Assembly: GCA_021737785.1 (NCBI GenBank)
Contig: JAIPDI010000006.1
Location: 1 to 64,000, forward strand
Source: Deltaproteobacteria bacterium
GTDB taxonomy: Bacteria > Desulfobacterota > DSM-4660 > Desulfatiglandales > Desulfatiglandaceae
Direction: 5' to 3'
Length of the DNA: 64,000 nucleotides
Part shown: positions 36,041-42,350 of the stretch, in pieces
Numbering within the stretch: the first letter of the stretch is position 1
Layout: every line of letters starts with the position of its first letter
Notes under the pieces: generated by a model
The model's input: only the letters and a program-made list of their open reading frames with translations
Databases searched by the model: none
Told to the model about the DNA's origin: nothing
Made by a program: the position numbers and the translations under genes

Positions 36041-36547
36041 TTAAACCAAAAATGAATGACCGGTCCGAACATCCCTCCCGGCGCCGGCTCTCAGACGACT
36101 CACCTTCAAAACCAGTTCAATCTCCCTTTTGGGCAGCCCAACCCTCTCAAAAATTTCATCCTTATCAAGACCCAAATCGGCAAGTCTCTTCACCTCTTTG
36201 TAGCGATCACCCGTGGATGAAACAGACACATCGCAACCTCTTTCCTCGGCATGTCCGCGTTCCTGAACCGGGTCGGAGAGGGGTTGCGCTATCGGGGGAT
36301 CATTGTCTATGATATTTTCCGGGTTTGCACTCTCCCCCCCCTCGAATTCGCCCAAGGTCGCCAGAGACGCCCTGTCCGCCCGTGTCAATTTCCTGAATTC
36401 CTGGTTGAAATCCCTCACGCTTCCCGCGACGCCCCGCATCGGAAAATTACGCCTGTACCGGGCCCTCTGATGAACCAGCAATACCACGGTAACCGCACAC
36501 ATGCAGATCGCCACCACATCTCCAATCCATTGAATCTGTTCCACCAT
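36041..36547 (-). CDS. Membrane-anchored DUF2802-like protein
   Basis: 168 residues from ATG 36547. One N-terminal transmembrane helix (GDVVAICMCAVTVVLLVHQ) is followed by a basic, low-complexity cytoplasmic part and a C-terminal helix-turn-helix-like segment (KRLADLGLDKDEIFERVGLP, REIELVLKV). This architecture matches the DUF2802 type of small protein found next to fliA/flhFG in many polar-flagellate genomes. Function unknown; the position suggests coupling to FlhF/FlhG or FliA (inference). Confidence 0.65.
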   Translation of the reverse strand: MVEQIQWIGDVVAICMCAVTVVLLVHQRARYRRNFPMRGVAGSVRDFNQEFRKLTRADRASLATLGEFEGGESANPENIIDNDPPIAQPLSDPVQERGHAEERGCDVSVSSTGDRYKEVKRLADLGLDKDEIFERVGLPKREIELVLKVSRLRAGAGRDVRTGHSFLV

Positions 36548-36591
36548 CAAGACCCCGTTTACACCCTGTCTGTTCGCGTCTTAAGCCGCAT

Positions 36592-37012: not shown

Positions 37013-37780
37013 TCACGCAAATTCATCATTGCCGAAGCCCATTTTGCTCAACTTTTTCCTCAAATGGATTATCGCCTGTGAGTGAATTTGAGAGACTCTC
37101 GATTCGGTAATGTCCAAAGTTGCGCCGATTTCTTTCATATTCAATTCGTCCCAATAATAGAGCGACATTACGAGCTTTTCCTTCTCCGGAAGTTCTTCAA
37201 TGGCATCGGCAATGCAGTCCTTCAGTTCCTTCAGACCCGTTAGATTCGATGGGTCCTCTCCACTCCCGTCAATCAGATAGTCCATGAGGCCGGCCTTTTC
37301 TTCTTTGGAAGAAAGGCCTATTTCTTCAAAACTCACAAAAGACATGTTGGACATGGCCCGTATTCTGTAAAAATCGTCGAGATCGAGATCCATCTCATCT
37401 GCGATCTCTTCGTCGGTCGCTTCTCTGCCAAGTTTCTGTTCAAGGGCCTTATGGGCAGCCATCAGTTCCCGTATCTTGCTCCGGCTTGATCTCGATAAAT
37501 GATCTCTGGAACGAAGTTCGGTGAGGACGGCGCCTTTCACCTTGAAGACAGCATAGGTGGAAAATTTGTTGTCTCTTCGATGGTCATAATTCTCCATGGC
37601 GTGCATCAACCCTATCACCCCTGCATTGATCAGATCGTCAACCTCAACAGTGGCCGGGAGATGCACGGCAATCCGGTGTACGATATTCTTGACAAAGGGG
37701 AGATACTGGAGGATCGACTGATTCCTCAGAATGACATCATCCTGCTCATATGCATCGCATTCCCATTTCGGCAAACCCAT
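37013..37780 (-). CDS. fliA: Flagellar sigma factor FliA (sigma-28)
   Basis: About 255 residues from ATG 37780, with GGAGGT 12 bases upstream. Region 2: LQYLPFVKNIVHRIAVHLPA, LINAGVIGLMHAMENYD and KFSTYAVFKVKGAVLTELRS. Region 3 and 4 follow: RSSRSKIRELMAAHKALEQK, ELPEKEKLVMSLYYWDELNM, EIGATLDITESRVSQIHSQA. It would read the TAAAGTTT/CGATAA promoters before flgK and flgM and is inhibited by FlgM. Confidence 0.96.
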   Translation of the reverse strand: MGLPKWECDAYEQDDVILRNQSILQYLPFVKNIVHRIAVHLPATVEVDDLINAGVIGLMHAMENYDHRRDNKFSTYAVFKVKGAVLTELRSRDHLSRSSRSKIRELMAAHKALEQKLGREATDEEIADEMDLDLDDFYRIRAMSNMSFVSFEEIGLSSKEEKAGLMDYLIDGSGEDPSNLTGLKELKDCIADAIEELPEKEKLVMSLYYWDELNMKEIGATLDITESRVSQIHSQAIIHLRKKLSKMGFGNDEFA

Positions 37781-37843
37781 AGTTAGTAGACTACCTCCAC
37801 ACATTCATTGATAACACAGGTAACCCGCATCCAACTTCTCTTG

Positions 37844-38755
37844 TCATTGCTGACAATCCTTTTCCACAACATTTCTCCAGAAGAAATTGGCGACGCCTTC
37901 CGGTGGCTGCAGCGCCGGTGTCTCGCAGATTTTCTTTGCCAGCACAGCAAAACATTTGCTCGCCTGGGAATTGGGGCAAAGTTCGCTGACAACTCTTTGC
38001 AGCTTCACGCCTTTTCTGACCTCTTCGTCGGCCAGTACATATCCGGTATACTCCAATGTAATGTCCAGGAACTTGTCCGTTACCAGTTTAAGCTGCCTGT
38101 ACAGTTCACTCGCTTCTTTTGCGGTTTTGGCGAAATTGACAATCAGCTTGAAATACTTCTGCGAATAGTGCAGGCGCAGAACCTTCATTAACGCATATGC
38201 ATCCGTAACAGACGTCGGTTCCGGGGAGACCACGACAATAATCTCCTGGGCGCTGCTGTTAAAATACATTACATTCGCTGAAATGCCCGCACCTGTATCG
38301 ATTAAGAAGACATCCACGGAATCAAGCATACGCTCAAGGGAAGAAAGGATCCTGACTCTCTGCTGATCCGTCAGGTGCGTCAGAGATTCGATGCCGGAGG
38401 AGGCGGGGAGAATCTTCATATTGCCCGGACCTGTTATGGCAATATCCGATATGTTCATCGTACCCATCGCCACATGGGAGATGTTGTGCTTGGGTGCAAG
38501 CCCCAGCAACACATCCATATTTCCGAGACCCAGATCGGCGTCGAAGATCAGGACCCTTTTGTCCAGCTGCGTCATGGCGAATCCGAGGTTAGCGACAATA
38601 TTTGTCTTTCCCACGCCTCCCTTTCCGCTCGTTATGGCAATGACGCGGGTATTCGACTTTTGAGTCTGTTTGGGCTCTTTGCCCAAAACAGTTCCCTTCT
38701 CGGCGAGTTTATCCGTCAATCTGATCACATTGCTACGGGAAGTCTCATGTTGCAT
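37844..38755 (-). CDS. flhG: MinD-like ATPase FlhG (flagellar number regulator)
   Basis: 303 residues. The deviant Walker A is ITSGKGGVGKTNIVANLGFA, then LIFDADLGLGNMDVLLGLAP and FLIDTGAGISANVMYFNSSA. The ~20 N-terminal residues (IRLTDKLAEKGTVLG) could hold the activator helix that stimulates FlhF GTPase. It lies 33 bp downstream of flhF, the standard pair for polar flagellar number and site control. Confidence 0.94.
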   Translation of the reverse strand: MQHETSRSNVIRLTDKLAEKGTVLGKEPKQTQKSNTRVIAITSGKGGVGKTNIVANLGFAMTQLDKRVLIFDADLGLGNMDVLLGLAPKHNISHVAMGTMNISDIAITGPGNMKILPASSGIESLTHLTDQQRVRILSSLERMLDSVDVFLIDTGAGISANVMYFNSSAQEIIVVVSPEPTSVTDAYALMKVLRLHYSQKYFKLIVNFAKTAKEASELYRQLKLVTDKFLDITLEYTGYVLADEEVRKGVKLQRVVSELCPNSQASKCFAVLAKKICETPALQPPEGVANFFWRNVVEKDCQQ

Positions 38756-38788: not shown

Positions 38789-40258
38789 TCAGTAAGCGAC
38801 GATTTCTTTCATTTCTTGGGTTGCGGCCCCCGTCAATGACGGTTCATCATTTTCTTCTTCAACTTCGGGTTGACACGCCCTGCAAGGACGAAAATTGTTT
38901 GCCAACGCTTCGGCCCGGGTATTAAAAACGACCCTGTTTCGGTTGCCGATTCTTTCCACCCATTTGCAGGAAGGATGGTGAAAAAGATCAGAATTCGTGT
39001 TGGCCACATATGCCTCGGCTTCAAACCCTCTCTCTCGGTTCCATTCGAGCGTCCGGGAGTTCTCTTCAGGCAATTGCTTCAATCCGTGTGCACGCCTTTT
39101 TTTCTGTCCTGCACATAATAGGCCTATCAGGCGATCCACCGATCCTTCTTCAATATTTTCCGGGATCTCCTGTCCGTTCGCAAAGTAAGACACCGGGAGC
39201 TTTGCGTGCACCACGGCATTCAGCATGGATCCATATTCAATCGTCTCATCGATTTTTGTAAACAGCAGCCAATCGATATGAAGCATATTGAATTTATTGA
39301 AAATGGATTCAAAATCCTTGCCTTTAGTTCCGGCCGCCGCCAAGAGATGGATCTCTAAAGAATCAAGCCCCTCCAAAAGCGCCTTCAGCTCATTAATTTC
39401 ATATATGTCATGGTGACTGATTCCGGGCGTATCAATCAGGATGAGATCTTTATCCCTGAACCTTTTCAGACATCCCTTGAGTTCCTTCTGGTTCGACACA
39501 GCGGCTACGGGCACGTCCAGGATGTTCCCATAGGCTTCCATCTGCGCCGCGGCCCCGATTCGATGATCATTGAGGGTGATGAGTGCTATCTTTTTCCCAT
39601 TCTGAAAAGTCTCGCTCACGGCCATTTTGGCCATGGTCGTTGTTTTCCCAACGCCGGTCGGTCCCACAAGGACCACAATGCGATGCTTCTCGGCACCCAT
39701 TTTATGGATGCGGTCCGTCACTCCCAGCTCCTTGAGCTGGTCCTTCAGATGCCCCTTGACCTCAGCGTCCCCCAACACCTTTTCTGAGGCTATCTCCTCT
39801 CTGAGACTTTCAATCAAACCGGAGGCAATGGTTTCTTCCACACCCTGTTTCAGCAATTCCTCATAGAGATTGAGAAATCGGATGAGGTTGTCGTTTCTGC
39901 GAAAATGCGGCTTCGCCGGGTCGGAAGGCTGGATCCTTTTCATCCGCTCTCTCTGTCCAAGGTTCAGTTGACGGGACGCCCCGGTGTCCGATTGATCTTT
40001 GTGACCTGCACCCGCGGACCGGCCCTTTTGAAGCGTCCATTTCCTGGCCGCAAAGTATTCCATTTTGGGCTTTCCATTTCCATGGGGAGTGTCGGTCGCC
40101 GCGGTCACCTCCACGCCAGGGCTTCTCAGCAACCCAAGGACGCCTTTCCCCTTGGTGACGTCCCTGGCCGAAAGAATAACCGCCTGAGGCCCAAATTCCC
40201 GCTTGATCATTTTCAGGGCCTCTGCCATATCTCGTGCCTCAAATCTTTTGATCTGCAT
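38789..40258 (-). CDS. flhF: SRP-type GTPase FlhF with C-terminal Ada-like zinc module
   Basis: 489 residues. N-terminal MQIKRFEARDMAEALKMIKR then a basic linker, an N domain (~140-190) and the G domain: G1 VGPTGVGKTTTMAKMA, LITLNDHRIGAAAQMEAYG, G3 LILIDTPGIS (usually DTAGRS), G4 TKIDET. It sets the site of a polar flagellum. After the G domain (~residue 425) comes ANTNSDLFHHPSCKWVERI and later EALANNFRPCRACQP, an H/C-x-C-x2-C layout like the Ada N-terminal zinc domain. The fusion is unusual, and the G2/G3 departures suggest altered nucleotide handling. Confidence 0.92.
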   Translation of the reverse strand: MQIKRFEARDMAEALKMIKREFGPQAVILSARDVTKGKGVLGLLRSPGVEVTAATDTPHGNGKPKMEYFAARKWTLQKGRSAGAGHKDQSDTGASRQLNLGQRERMKRIQPSDPAKPHFRRNDNLIRFLNLYEELLKQGVEETIASGLIESLREEIASEKVLGDAEVKGHLKDQLKELGVTDRIHKMGAEKHRIVVLVGPTGVGKTTTMAKMAVSETFQNGKKIALITLNDHRIGAAAQMEAYGNILDVPVAAVSNQKELKGCLKRFRDKDLILIDTPGISHHDIYEINELKALLEGLDSLEIHLLAAAGTKGKDFESIFNKFNMLHIDWLLFTKIDETIEYGSMLNAVVHAKLPVSYFANGQEIPENIEEGSVDRLIGLLCAGQKKRRAHGLKQLPEENSRTLEWNRERGFEAEAYVANTNSDLFHHPSCKWVERIGNRNRVVFNTRAEALANNFRPCRACQPEVEEENDEPSLTGAATQEMKEIVAY

Positions 40259-40259
40259 G

Positions 40260-42350
40260 TCACACCTTCACTGTTCCAATGGATTGAATTTTAGCACTGC
40301 TGACGATCTCATTGTATGATAGGACCGCTAAATCCGGGACAAACCGTTCCACAAGCCTCTTGAAATGGGGGCGGATTTGCGGTGAGCACAAGACCACGGG
40401 GTGTCTGTTGAGTTCTGAAAATCTTTCCATGTTCTCGCTGAGGTTTGCTATAATCTTTTGCGCCAGATGTGGCTCCAGGGGTAAAAATTGTCCCTGATCG
40501 GTCTGCTGAAGGGCATCTGCGATGGTCTTCTCCAGCTGTTGATCGAGTGTGATCACGGAGATATCCCCGTCGGGAGACTGATAAAGTGCGGTGATGGTTC
40601 TTCTCAATGCCTGGCGGACGTATTCGGTTAAGAGATCCGGATCCTTAATCACCGGTGCCCAATCCGCCAGTGTCTCCAAGATCGTCAGCAGATCCCGGAT
40701 TGAGATCTGCTCTTTGAGAAGATTCTGCAGCACACGGACCACCGCCCCGATAGGGAGCAAATTGGGTATCAGTTCTTCAATGACCTTGGGATTCGTAACC
40801 TTCAGATTGTCCAGGAACTTTTGGACCTCCTGTCTTCCCAGACATTCGTGTGAATGATGCCGGATGACGTCGGAGACATGCGTTATCAGGACAGTAGCCA
40901 GATCAACCACCGTATATCCCTTGGCCAGCACATCCTCCCTGTCCTTTTCTTTGATCCAGACGGCCGGAAGACCGTAGGTGGGCTCTGTTGTGGAGATTCC
41001 ATTAATTTTTTCAGTGGTGGTGCCGGGGTTCATCGCCAAAAGGTGGTTCTTCATCAATTCCCCGCTGGCCACCTCGTTCCCCCTCAGCAGAATGGAATAT
41101 GCATTGGGTTTCAGCTTCATGTTATCCTGAATATGAATGGGGGGAACAATAATGCCCATGTCCCGAGCCATCTGCTCCCTGGTGGATTTAACCCGCTCCA
41201 TGAATTGTCCACCCTGATCCACATCCACCAGGGGAATAAGCCCATACCCCACCTCCATAGCCATCACATCTACCGGGGGAACCGCTTCCACCCGCGCAGG
41301 GGTCCTTCTCTTCGATTCGGCCACTTCAGTGTCTCTGGCCTTCGCCGTATCAGCCTTTCTGGTTTTGGTTACCACGTATGCAACACCTCCGGCGACCGCC
41401 GATAGCGCCAGAAAAGGGACCGTCGGAAGTCCCGGAACCATTGCAAAACCAAAGAGCACTGCAGAAGCAACGATCAACGCCCGGGGCTCGGTCAGGATCT
41501 GGGATATCACCTCGTGTCCCAGTGCGGATTCAGAGCCGGCCCTGCTGACCACAATACCGGCTGCAGTGGATATCATCAGCGCGGGGATCTGGGTAACCAG
41601 CCCGTCGCCTACTGTCAGGAGGGTATAGGTCTGGGCTGCGTCGGCAAACCCCATCCCGTTTTGCAGGACCCCGATGGCAAGTCCCCCCACGATATTAATA
41701 AGCGTGATGATGATCCCCGCAATGGCATCCCCCTTTACAAACTTACTGGCGCCGTCCATGGCTCCGTAAAAATCAGCCTCCCTGGAAATTTCGCGACGCC
41801 GGGACTTTGCCTCTGCCTCGTCAATGAGTCCTGCATTCAGGTCGGCATCGATGCTCATCTGCTTGCCGGGCATGGCATCCAGGGTAAATCGGGCTGCCAC
41901 TTCGCCGATCCGCCCCGATCCCTTGGTGATGACCATCAAATTGATGAGGACAAGGACCATGAAAACAATAGCGCCTACCACATAATTGCCGCCTACCACA
42001 AACCCGCCAAAGGCCTTTATCACATTTCCGGCTGCTGCAGGCCCCTCGCTGCCGTGCAGCAGAATTATCCGGGTCGAGGCGATATTAAGAGAGAGCCTGA
42101 ACAATGTGGCGATCAGAAGCACCGATGGAAACGATGAGAAGTCCAATGGTCGCAACAGATACGTGCCTACCAGCAGAATGGTCAGGGCAAAGGTGATATT
42201 GAATGACAGCAGGAGATCCAGGACAACCGCCGGCAGGGGCATCACCATCAAGACCACAATGCCCACAACGCCTATGGAGGCGATGACCTCGCTGTTCTTG
42301 GTCAGAAATGGAATATTCACTGAATGACTTGCCTGATTGGGTATTGCCAT
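40260..42350 (-). CDS. flhA: Flagellar export gate protein FlhA
   Basis: 696 residues. Eight N-terminal transmembrane segments (for example VVGIVVLMVMPLPAVVLDLL) with the FHIPEP-type loop RFTLDAMPGKQMSIDADLNA, then a large cytoplasmic domain from ~350 (YGLPAVWIKEKDREDVLAKG; CLGRQEVQKFLDNL). FlhA is the central energy-coupling subunit of the export gate. The start abuts flhF, with its stop 2 bp from the flhF start. Confidence 0.97.
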   Translation of the reverse strand: MAIPNQASHSVNIPFLTKNSEVIASIGVVGIVVLMVMPLPAVVLDLLLSFNITFALTILLVGTYLLRPLDFSSFPSVLLIATLFRLSLNIASTRIILLHGSEGPAAAGNVIKAFGGFVVGGNYVVGAIVFMVLVLINLMVITKGSGRIGEVAARFTLDAMPGKQMSIDADLNAGLIDEAEAKSRRREISREADFYGAMDGASKFVKGDAIAGIIITLINIVGGLAIGVLQNGMGFADAAQTYTLLTVGDGLVTQIPALMISTAAGIVVSRAGSESALGHEVISQILTEPRALIVASAVLFGFAMVPGLPTVPFLALSAVAGGVAYVVTKTRKADTAKARDTEVAESKRRTPARVEAVPPVDVMAMEVGYGLIPLVDVDQGGQFMERVKSTREQMARDMGIIVPPIHIQDNMKLKPNAYSILLRGNEVASGELMKNHLLAMNPGTTTEKINGISTTEPTYGLPAVWIKEKDREDVLAKGYTVVDLATVLITHVSDVIRHHSHECLGRQEVQKFLDNLKVTNPKVIEELIPNLLPIGAVVRVLQNLLKEQISIRDLLTILETLADWAPVIKDPDLLTEYVRQALRRTITALYQSPDGDISVITLDQQLEKTIADALQQTDQGQFLPLEPHLAQKIIANLSENMERFSELNRHPVVLCSPQIRPHFKRLVERFVPDLAVLSYNEIVSSAKIQSIGTVKV

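Follow-up and report, generated by a model that had tools for sequence, protein, structure and literature searches.

In many bacteria the placement of flagella depends on FlhF, which, as excerpts of PMC12826062 describe it, holds FliG through an N-terminal FliG-interacting (FID) region. A DQAxxLR helix at the N-terminus of FlhG stimulates the GTPase activity of FlhF through its glutamine (excerpts of PMC12826062 and PMC11236974), and the first of these sources describes this control as conserved. The other described system that bears on the present locus is Ada, in which Cys38 is both the methyl acceptor and one of four Cys ligands (excerpt of PMC10814553). The FlhF that we analyse here ends in an Ada-type module, a new domain architecture in a known family. 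Literature queries joining FlhF with Ada and zinc, or FlhF with 'metal binding domain', found nothing, and among the matches listed for FlhF and zinc no title concerned a zinc domain of FlhF.

The window, a stretch of 64,000 nucleotides from a Deltaproteobacteria bacterium, encodes this protein at 38789..40258 on the minus strand, as are all window features below. The gene product, 489 residues long, combines an SRP-type GTPase with a predicted C-terminal Ada-type zinc module. It passes the FlhF equivalog profile TIGR03499 (197.2 bits, cut-off 174.15), and a Foldseek search with its predicted structure returned the FlhF entries 8r9r and 2px0 as top matches. The FID region (residues 1–56; 40091..40258) is strongly conserved, with 19 of 56 columns invariant among 45 tail-bearing FlhFs. 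The GTPase domain (residues 190–382; 39113..39691) matches PF00448 at 109.8 bits and carries a divergent G2 (NDHR) and G3 (DTPGIS). A flexible linker (residues 383–414; 39017..39112) leads to the predicted zinc module (residues 415–465; 38864..39016), past which lie residues 466–489 and the stop codon (38789..38863), a low-confidence segment with about 10% mean pairwise identity and a weak helix at 477–488. Within the GTPase domain the P-loop, GPTGVGKTTT, is intact, and because its residues G199, G202, G204 and K205, together with D276 and D337, are invariant in the 45 tail-bearing proteins, GTP binding is probably kept.

The initial annotation had proposed an Ada-like zinc-binding module at the C-terminus of this FlhF, and profile, predicted fold and invariant ligands all bear it out, with metal binding itself deduced from them. 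The domain search that it called for gave PF02805 (Ada_Zn_binding) at 32.0 bits with the whole protein and 34.3 bits with the tail alone, against a cut-off of 23, and all 45 tail-bearing FlhFs match the same profile. Searched by phmmer against solved structures, the tail matched entries of the Ada N-domain alone (E 3.9e-5 to 9.3e-5). The two recognizable motifs, FHHPSCKW (residues 426–433) and FRPCRACQP (residues 456–464), set the predicted ligands in the order H-x3-C-x27-C-x2-C. The motifs, their strand and the Ada-type assignment thus stand as first read; the spacing claimed to be that of the Ada N-domain needs the correction that a His stands at the first ligand position, where Ada has a Cys. 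All four putative ligands, H427 (38978–38980), C431 (38966–38968), C459 (38882–38884) and C462 (38873–38875), are invariant in 45 of 45 sequences, and we infer that they bind zinc and hold the fold together. Conservation extends to A419, I437, F445 and A451, which are invariant, and to the near-invariant N420, S423 and P458; these non-ligand residues may form the core.

Structure prediction agrees with this picture. AlphaFold2, run on 45 sequences, models the module as a separate, confident domain (blocks with mean pLDDT 92–94) between disordered stretches, pLDDT falling below 50 at residues 395–414 and 466–481. Modelled alone, the module reaches a mean pLDDT of 82.6, and its top structural match is the DNA-bound N-terminal domain of Ada (N-Ada; E 3.5e-3, query TM 0.76). 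A second structural comparison placed 1u8b first (Z 6.9, rmsd 1.9, 51 residues aligned), the first unrelated row having a Z of 2.5. N-Ada is the sole confident structural match of the predicted model.

We were interested in how widely the tail occurs. Five tail-bearing FlhFs served as queries in a scan of genome contigs that returned 305 relatives, of which the best 80 were kept; beyond the host's own phylum, the distribution rests on the FlhFs among these 80. By tblastn coverage, 45 of the best 80 (of 305) FlhF loci bear the tail. A motif test identified the identical 45; taken alone it would bias the ligand count, since it required three Cys and a His or Cys at ligand 1, yet tblastn coverage makes no ligand demand and selects the same loci. 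The survey of relatives proposed in the initial annotation thus shows that many close relatives carry the tail, so that its absence from all of them, under which it would have been dismissed as noise, does not hold, and chance or orphan sequence is rejected as its origin. Tail-bearing loci are labelled Deltaproteobacteria, Desulfobacterales, Desulfobacteraceae, Desulfosarcina or Olavius symbionts, and no tail is present on those FlhFs among the best 80 that come from Nitrospinota, Nitrospirota, Bacillota, Desulfuromonadaceae and Desulfobulbaceae. Within the family of the host, 23 of 46 genomes have an FlhF match (E <= 1e-30), five of which extend through the tail; among 394 genomes of the phylum, 238 have an FlhF match and at least eight matches extend through it.

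The 45-row alignment used throughout (A3) combines the window's FlhF with 44 of the 45 tail-bearing loci. L072, which has the tail and whose open reading frame starts late (348 residues), was left out of this alignment and of A4. Mean pairwise identity is 65.5% over residues 1–56, 46.0% over the module and 37.1% over the GTPase domain, and falls to a near-random 7.5% and 10.3% in the two flanks of the module. From its spread and conservation, we conclude that the tail is ancient and under selection. Phylogenetic reconstruction of 131 FlhFs, with tail columns excluded and with duplicates and L029–L032 (read as SRP/FtsY-type) left out, recovered a set of 61 rows (SH-aLRT 96) made up of 49 tail rows and 12 non-tail rows; L104 falls outside it. 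On this tree, some inner branches of which are weak and the root of which is not fixed, the tail label changes 8 times, against 39.6 times when shuffled. The simplest reading of these sequences would be one gain of the tail followed by several losses. Since several clade members lack the module, it is not essential everywhere.

Given its family, the module might be expected to sense alkylation as Ada does, methylation of the zinc site altering FlhF, and the initial annotation had raised this possibility. Membership of PF02805 is what speaks for it. However, the position equivalent to Cys38, which PMC10814553, as excerpted, gives as the acceptor, is His in all 45 aligned proteins, and the Cys is retained in L175 and L177, two true Ada-type proteins from relatives. 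A Pfam search of the 81-residue tail at E up to 1 returned PF02805 and a weak DUF6233 match, and no helix-turn-helix (HTH) in the 24 residues that follow the module. Because the acceptor position is His and no DNA-binding HTH follows, alkylation sensing is unsupported; we reject the module as an alkylation sensor on the His in 45 of 45 sequences and consider such a role highly improbable.

The same module occurs on other proteins. The other PF02805 match in the host's genome (L002:1276-2151, minus strand) is a nuclease of the SNase type that seems to carry a signal peptide and has a strongly basic Ada-type module at its C-terminus. Eighteen further stretches from relatives were inspected: 13 were read by eye as SNase-type with the architecture of L002, a reading for which Pfam was run on L164 and L002, and the remaining five comprise the two Ada-type proteins L175 and L177, one with no match, L167 and L176. 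A literature query joining Ada_Zn_binding with nuclease found nothing. In L167 (1317-2288, minus strand), an LptF/LptG-type permease, and L176 (72-905, plus strand), an alpha/beta hydrolase, a His-Cys3 Ada-type motif stands at the very end of the protein, where Pfam gave no PF02805 match at E 1e-4. Judged by these contexts, the His-Cys3 Ada-type module is a portable C-terminal part.

These occurrences bear on several alternative roles. The module could be a nucleic-acid-binding appendage that brings FlhF to DNA, such as flagellar promoters, or to RNA, and so acts on transcription or is itself regulated by nucleic acid. Its predicted fold is that of N-Ada as seen in the DNA complex, the nucleases of relatives end in the same module in strongly basic form, and excerpts of PMC7105676 report binding of flagellar promoters by Campylobacter jejuni FlhF. 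The FlhF modules, however, are only mildly basic, with a median net charge of +3 (n=45, range -1 to 8) against +9 in the 11 nuclease modules that fit one pattern among 19 loci of the host's genome and its relatives (p about 1e-6), and no HTH follows the module in FlhF. With this difference in charge, a nucleic-acid role becomes less likely for the tail of FlhF, and we consider it rather unlikely. The module could also be a passive cap for stability or solubility, acquired by domain shuffling and without a specific partner. That it ends unrelated proteins (SNase, LptF/G permease, hydrolase), and that several clade members do without it, would fit such a cap, but the module is better conserved than the GTPase domain, including at non-ligand residues, even if these may simply be core positions. 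We regard a cap as unlikely, if slightly less so than the nucleic-acid role.

Oxidation of the His-Cys3 site or loss of its zinc could unfold the module and turn FlhF off, coupling flagellation to oxygen or zinc. The invariance of three Cys and one His, in a lineage whose database labels are of sulfate-reducer type, would suit a redox or metal sensor of this kind. Against it, no additional reactive Cys is conserved among the 45 aligned proteins, and the presence of the module on unrelated proteins suggests a structural role instead. We therefore judge a sensor of this kind improbable.

Directly downstream in the flagellar gene order lies flhG (37844..38755), a MinD-like ATPase identified from its translation, by comparison and from ParA/MinD-type Pfam matches. 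Its N-terminus lacks DQAxxLR and has NVIRL in its place. The loss is a property of the whole FlhF clade: DQAxxLR is present in none of the 61 FlhGs, versus 62 of 70 outside. A V/I-I-x-L type motif, a loose pattern of descriptive value, stands near the FlhG start in 59 of the 61; this count used an FlhG stretch of 60 residues, beyond which the DQAxxLR of L047 falls. The only other MinD-like match in the host's genome (L183), considered as a second FlhG, also lacks DQAxxLR in the stretch inspected and was rejected.

The switch motifs of FlhF have drifted as well. DTAGR is the G3 hallmark of SRP GTPases, although the TIGR03499 model does not require it; its Arg is absent from all 61 clade members, versus presence in 49 of 70 FlhFs outside, and the protein of the window reads DTPGI. 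The altered motifs NDHRIG and DTPGIS, singled out in the initial annotation, are real and prove to be of two kinds. The G2 change from Asp to Asn (NDHR) is found in just 4 of the 45 tail-bearing FlhFs, the DxxR pattern being retained in 34 of 49 tail rows, while Pro for Ala at the third residue of G3 (position 278) is the rule, in 40 of 45 aligned sequences and 41 of 49 tail rows of the tree. Where identity over residues 1–56 is 0.6–0.7, GTPase-domain identity is 0.358 for tail-bearing proteins, 0.603 for FlhFs outside the clade and, in between, 0.438 for the clade's tail-less members. FlhG has lost DQAxxLR in the 12 non-tail rows of the clade as well, and for this reason the tail is not an obligatory substitute for the enhancer; its proposal as a direct replacement is unsupported. 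The tail would instead have arisen in, or together with, an already altered FlhF/FlhG system. A test of correlated evolution between the FlhG motif and the FlhF motifs was not significant and could not have been, because only three independent pairs were available. In four loci outside the clade (L025, L028, L157 and L160) a degenerate FlhF G2 likewise accompanies a neighbouring FlhG without DQAxxLR, a hint of repeated co-decay. A well-kept module beside drifted switch machinery suggests a rewired flagellum-placing switch.

The gene neighbourhood offers candidate partners. Directly upstream of flhF lies flhA (40260..42350), read by eye from its translation, and an flhA-like frame precedes flhF in all nine loci with listed open reading frames. 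Downstream of flhG is a probable fliA (sigma-28; 37013..37804; also read by eye), followed by a frame (36041..36550) for a possible FipA-like membrane protein (DUF2802), with PF10975 at 27.3 bits, below the cut-off of 33.5. FipA is a gammaproteobacterial protein encoded downstream of flhA-flhF-flhG-fliA (excerpt of PMC11620751); the frame in the window occupies this very place in a host outside the gammaproteobacteria. Among 41 relatives, 15 have DUF2802-like matches, and each of the five genomes with the tail is one of these 15. We treat this protein as a lead only for an FlhF partner. With regard to a HubP/FimV landmark, no match to the FimV C-terminal domain (TIGR03504) was found across the 96 contigs of the host's genome. 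A pole-located partner for the module is plausible. The last five residues of FlhF (485–489 in the window) contain a Tyr in 23 of 49 tail-bearing proteins, in 7 of the 12 clade members that have no tail and in 11 of the 70 proteins outside the clade, and a C-terminal Tyr is possibly a short motif of its own.

The reading we prefer, ahead of a passive cap and of a nucleic-acid role, is a docking module with structural zinc, joined by a flexible tether to an FlhF with looser control of its GTP cycle; we give it about an even chance. One Desulfobacterota clade of FlhF would have gained the Ada-fold module at the C-terminus, probably once, with the disordered linker tethering it to the protein. 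Because the acceptor Cys is replaced by His, the module would perform no methyl transfer. It would serve as a docking part, most likely for protein–protein contact, a role other than nucleic-acid binding being favoured because its median charge is +3 and that of the nuclease modules +9. FlhF could then act as a tether fixed at two points, with the FID holding FliG and the zinc module gripping a partner in the membrane or at the pole. Control of the GTP cycle may be looser in this clade, given an FlhG that has no DQAxxLR enhancer and an FlhF that has no DTAGR arginine. A more speculative reading, which we think unlikely, is that the switch was rebuilt altogether: FlhG would no longer accelerate GTP hydrolysis, the GTPase domain would be drifting towards a tether that is slow or always GTP-bound, and the zinc module, docked on a new landmark, would have taken over spatial control. 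In its bolder form, nucleic acid would once more control FlhF through the module, as in the parent SRP system.

A clade without DQAxxLR, with drifted GTPase motifs and with a zinc module as the best-kept part past the N-terminus amounts to a natural experiment on whether FlhF needs GTP hydrolysis or anchoring. The portable His-Cys3 module, from which no alkylation chemistry is expected, also bears on automatic annotation of proteins as Ada-like. Compared with known systems, the FlhG of the window resembles Pseudomonas FleN, an FlhG homologue that also lacks DQAxxLR, so that the loss is not unique; FleN belongs to a different clade, and the excerpt of PMC12713375 that describes it makes no mention of a zinc tail on its FlhF. 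The SNase proteins of the host and its relatives end in the same C-terminal His-Cys3 version of the module, but are nucleases with an apparent signal peptide and a far more basic module. N-Ada (PF02805; 1u8b, 1adn) shares with the predicted model the fold and the placement of the four ligands, whereas the FlhF module has His for Cys38, is followed by no AraC-type HTH and is C-terminal instead of N-terminal. Finally, the described FlhF (Shewanella FlhF, 2px0) has in common with that of the window the FID region, the N and G domains and the flhA-flhF-flhG order; the window differs by its zinc module, by a G3 that reads DTPG without the Arg, and by an FlhG without DQAxxLR.
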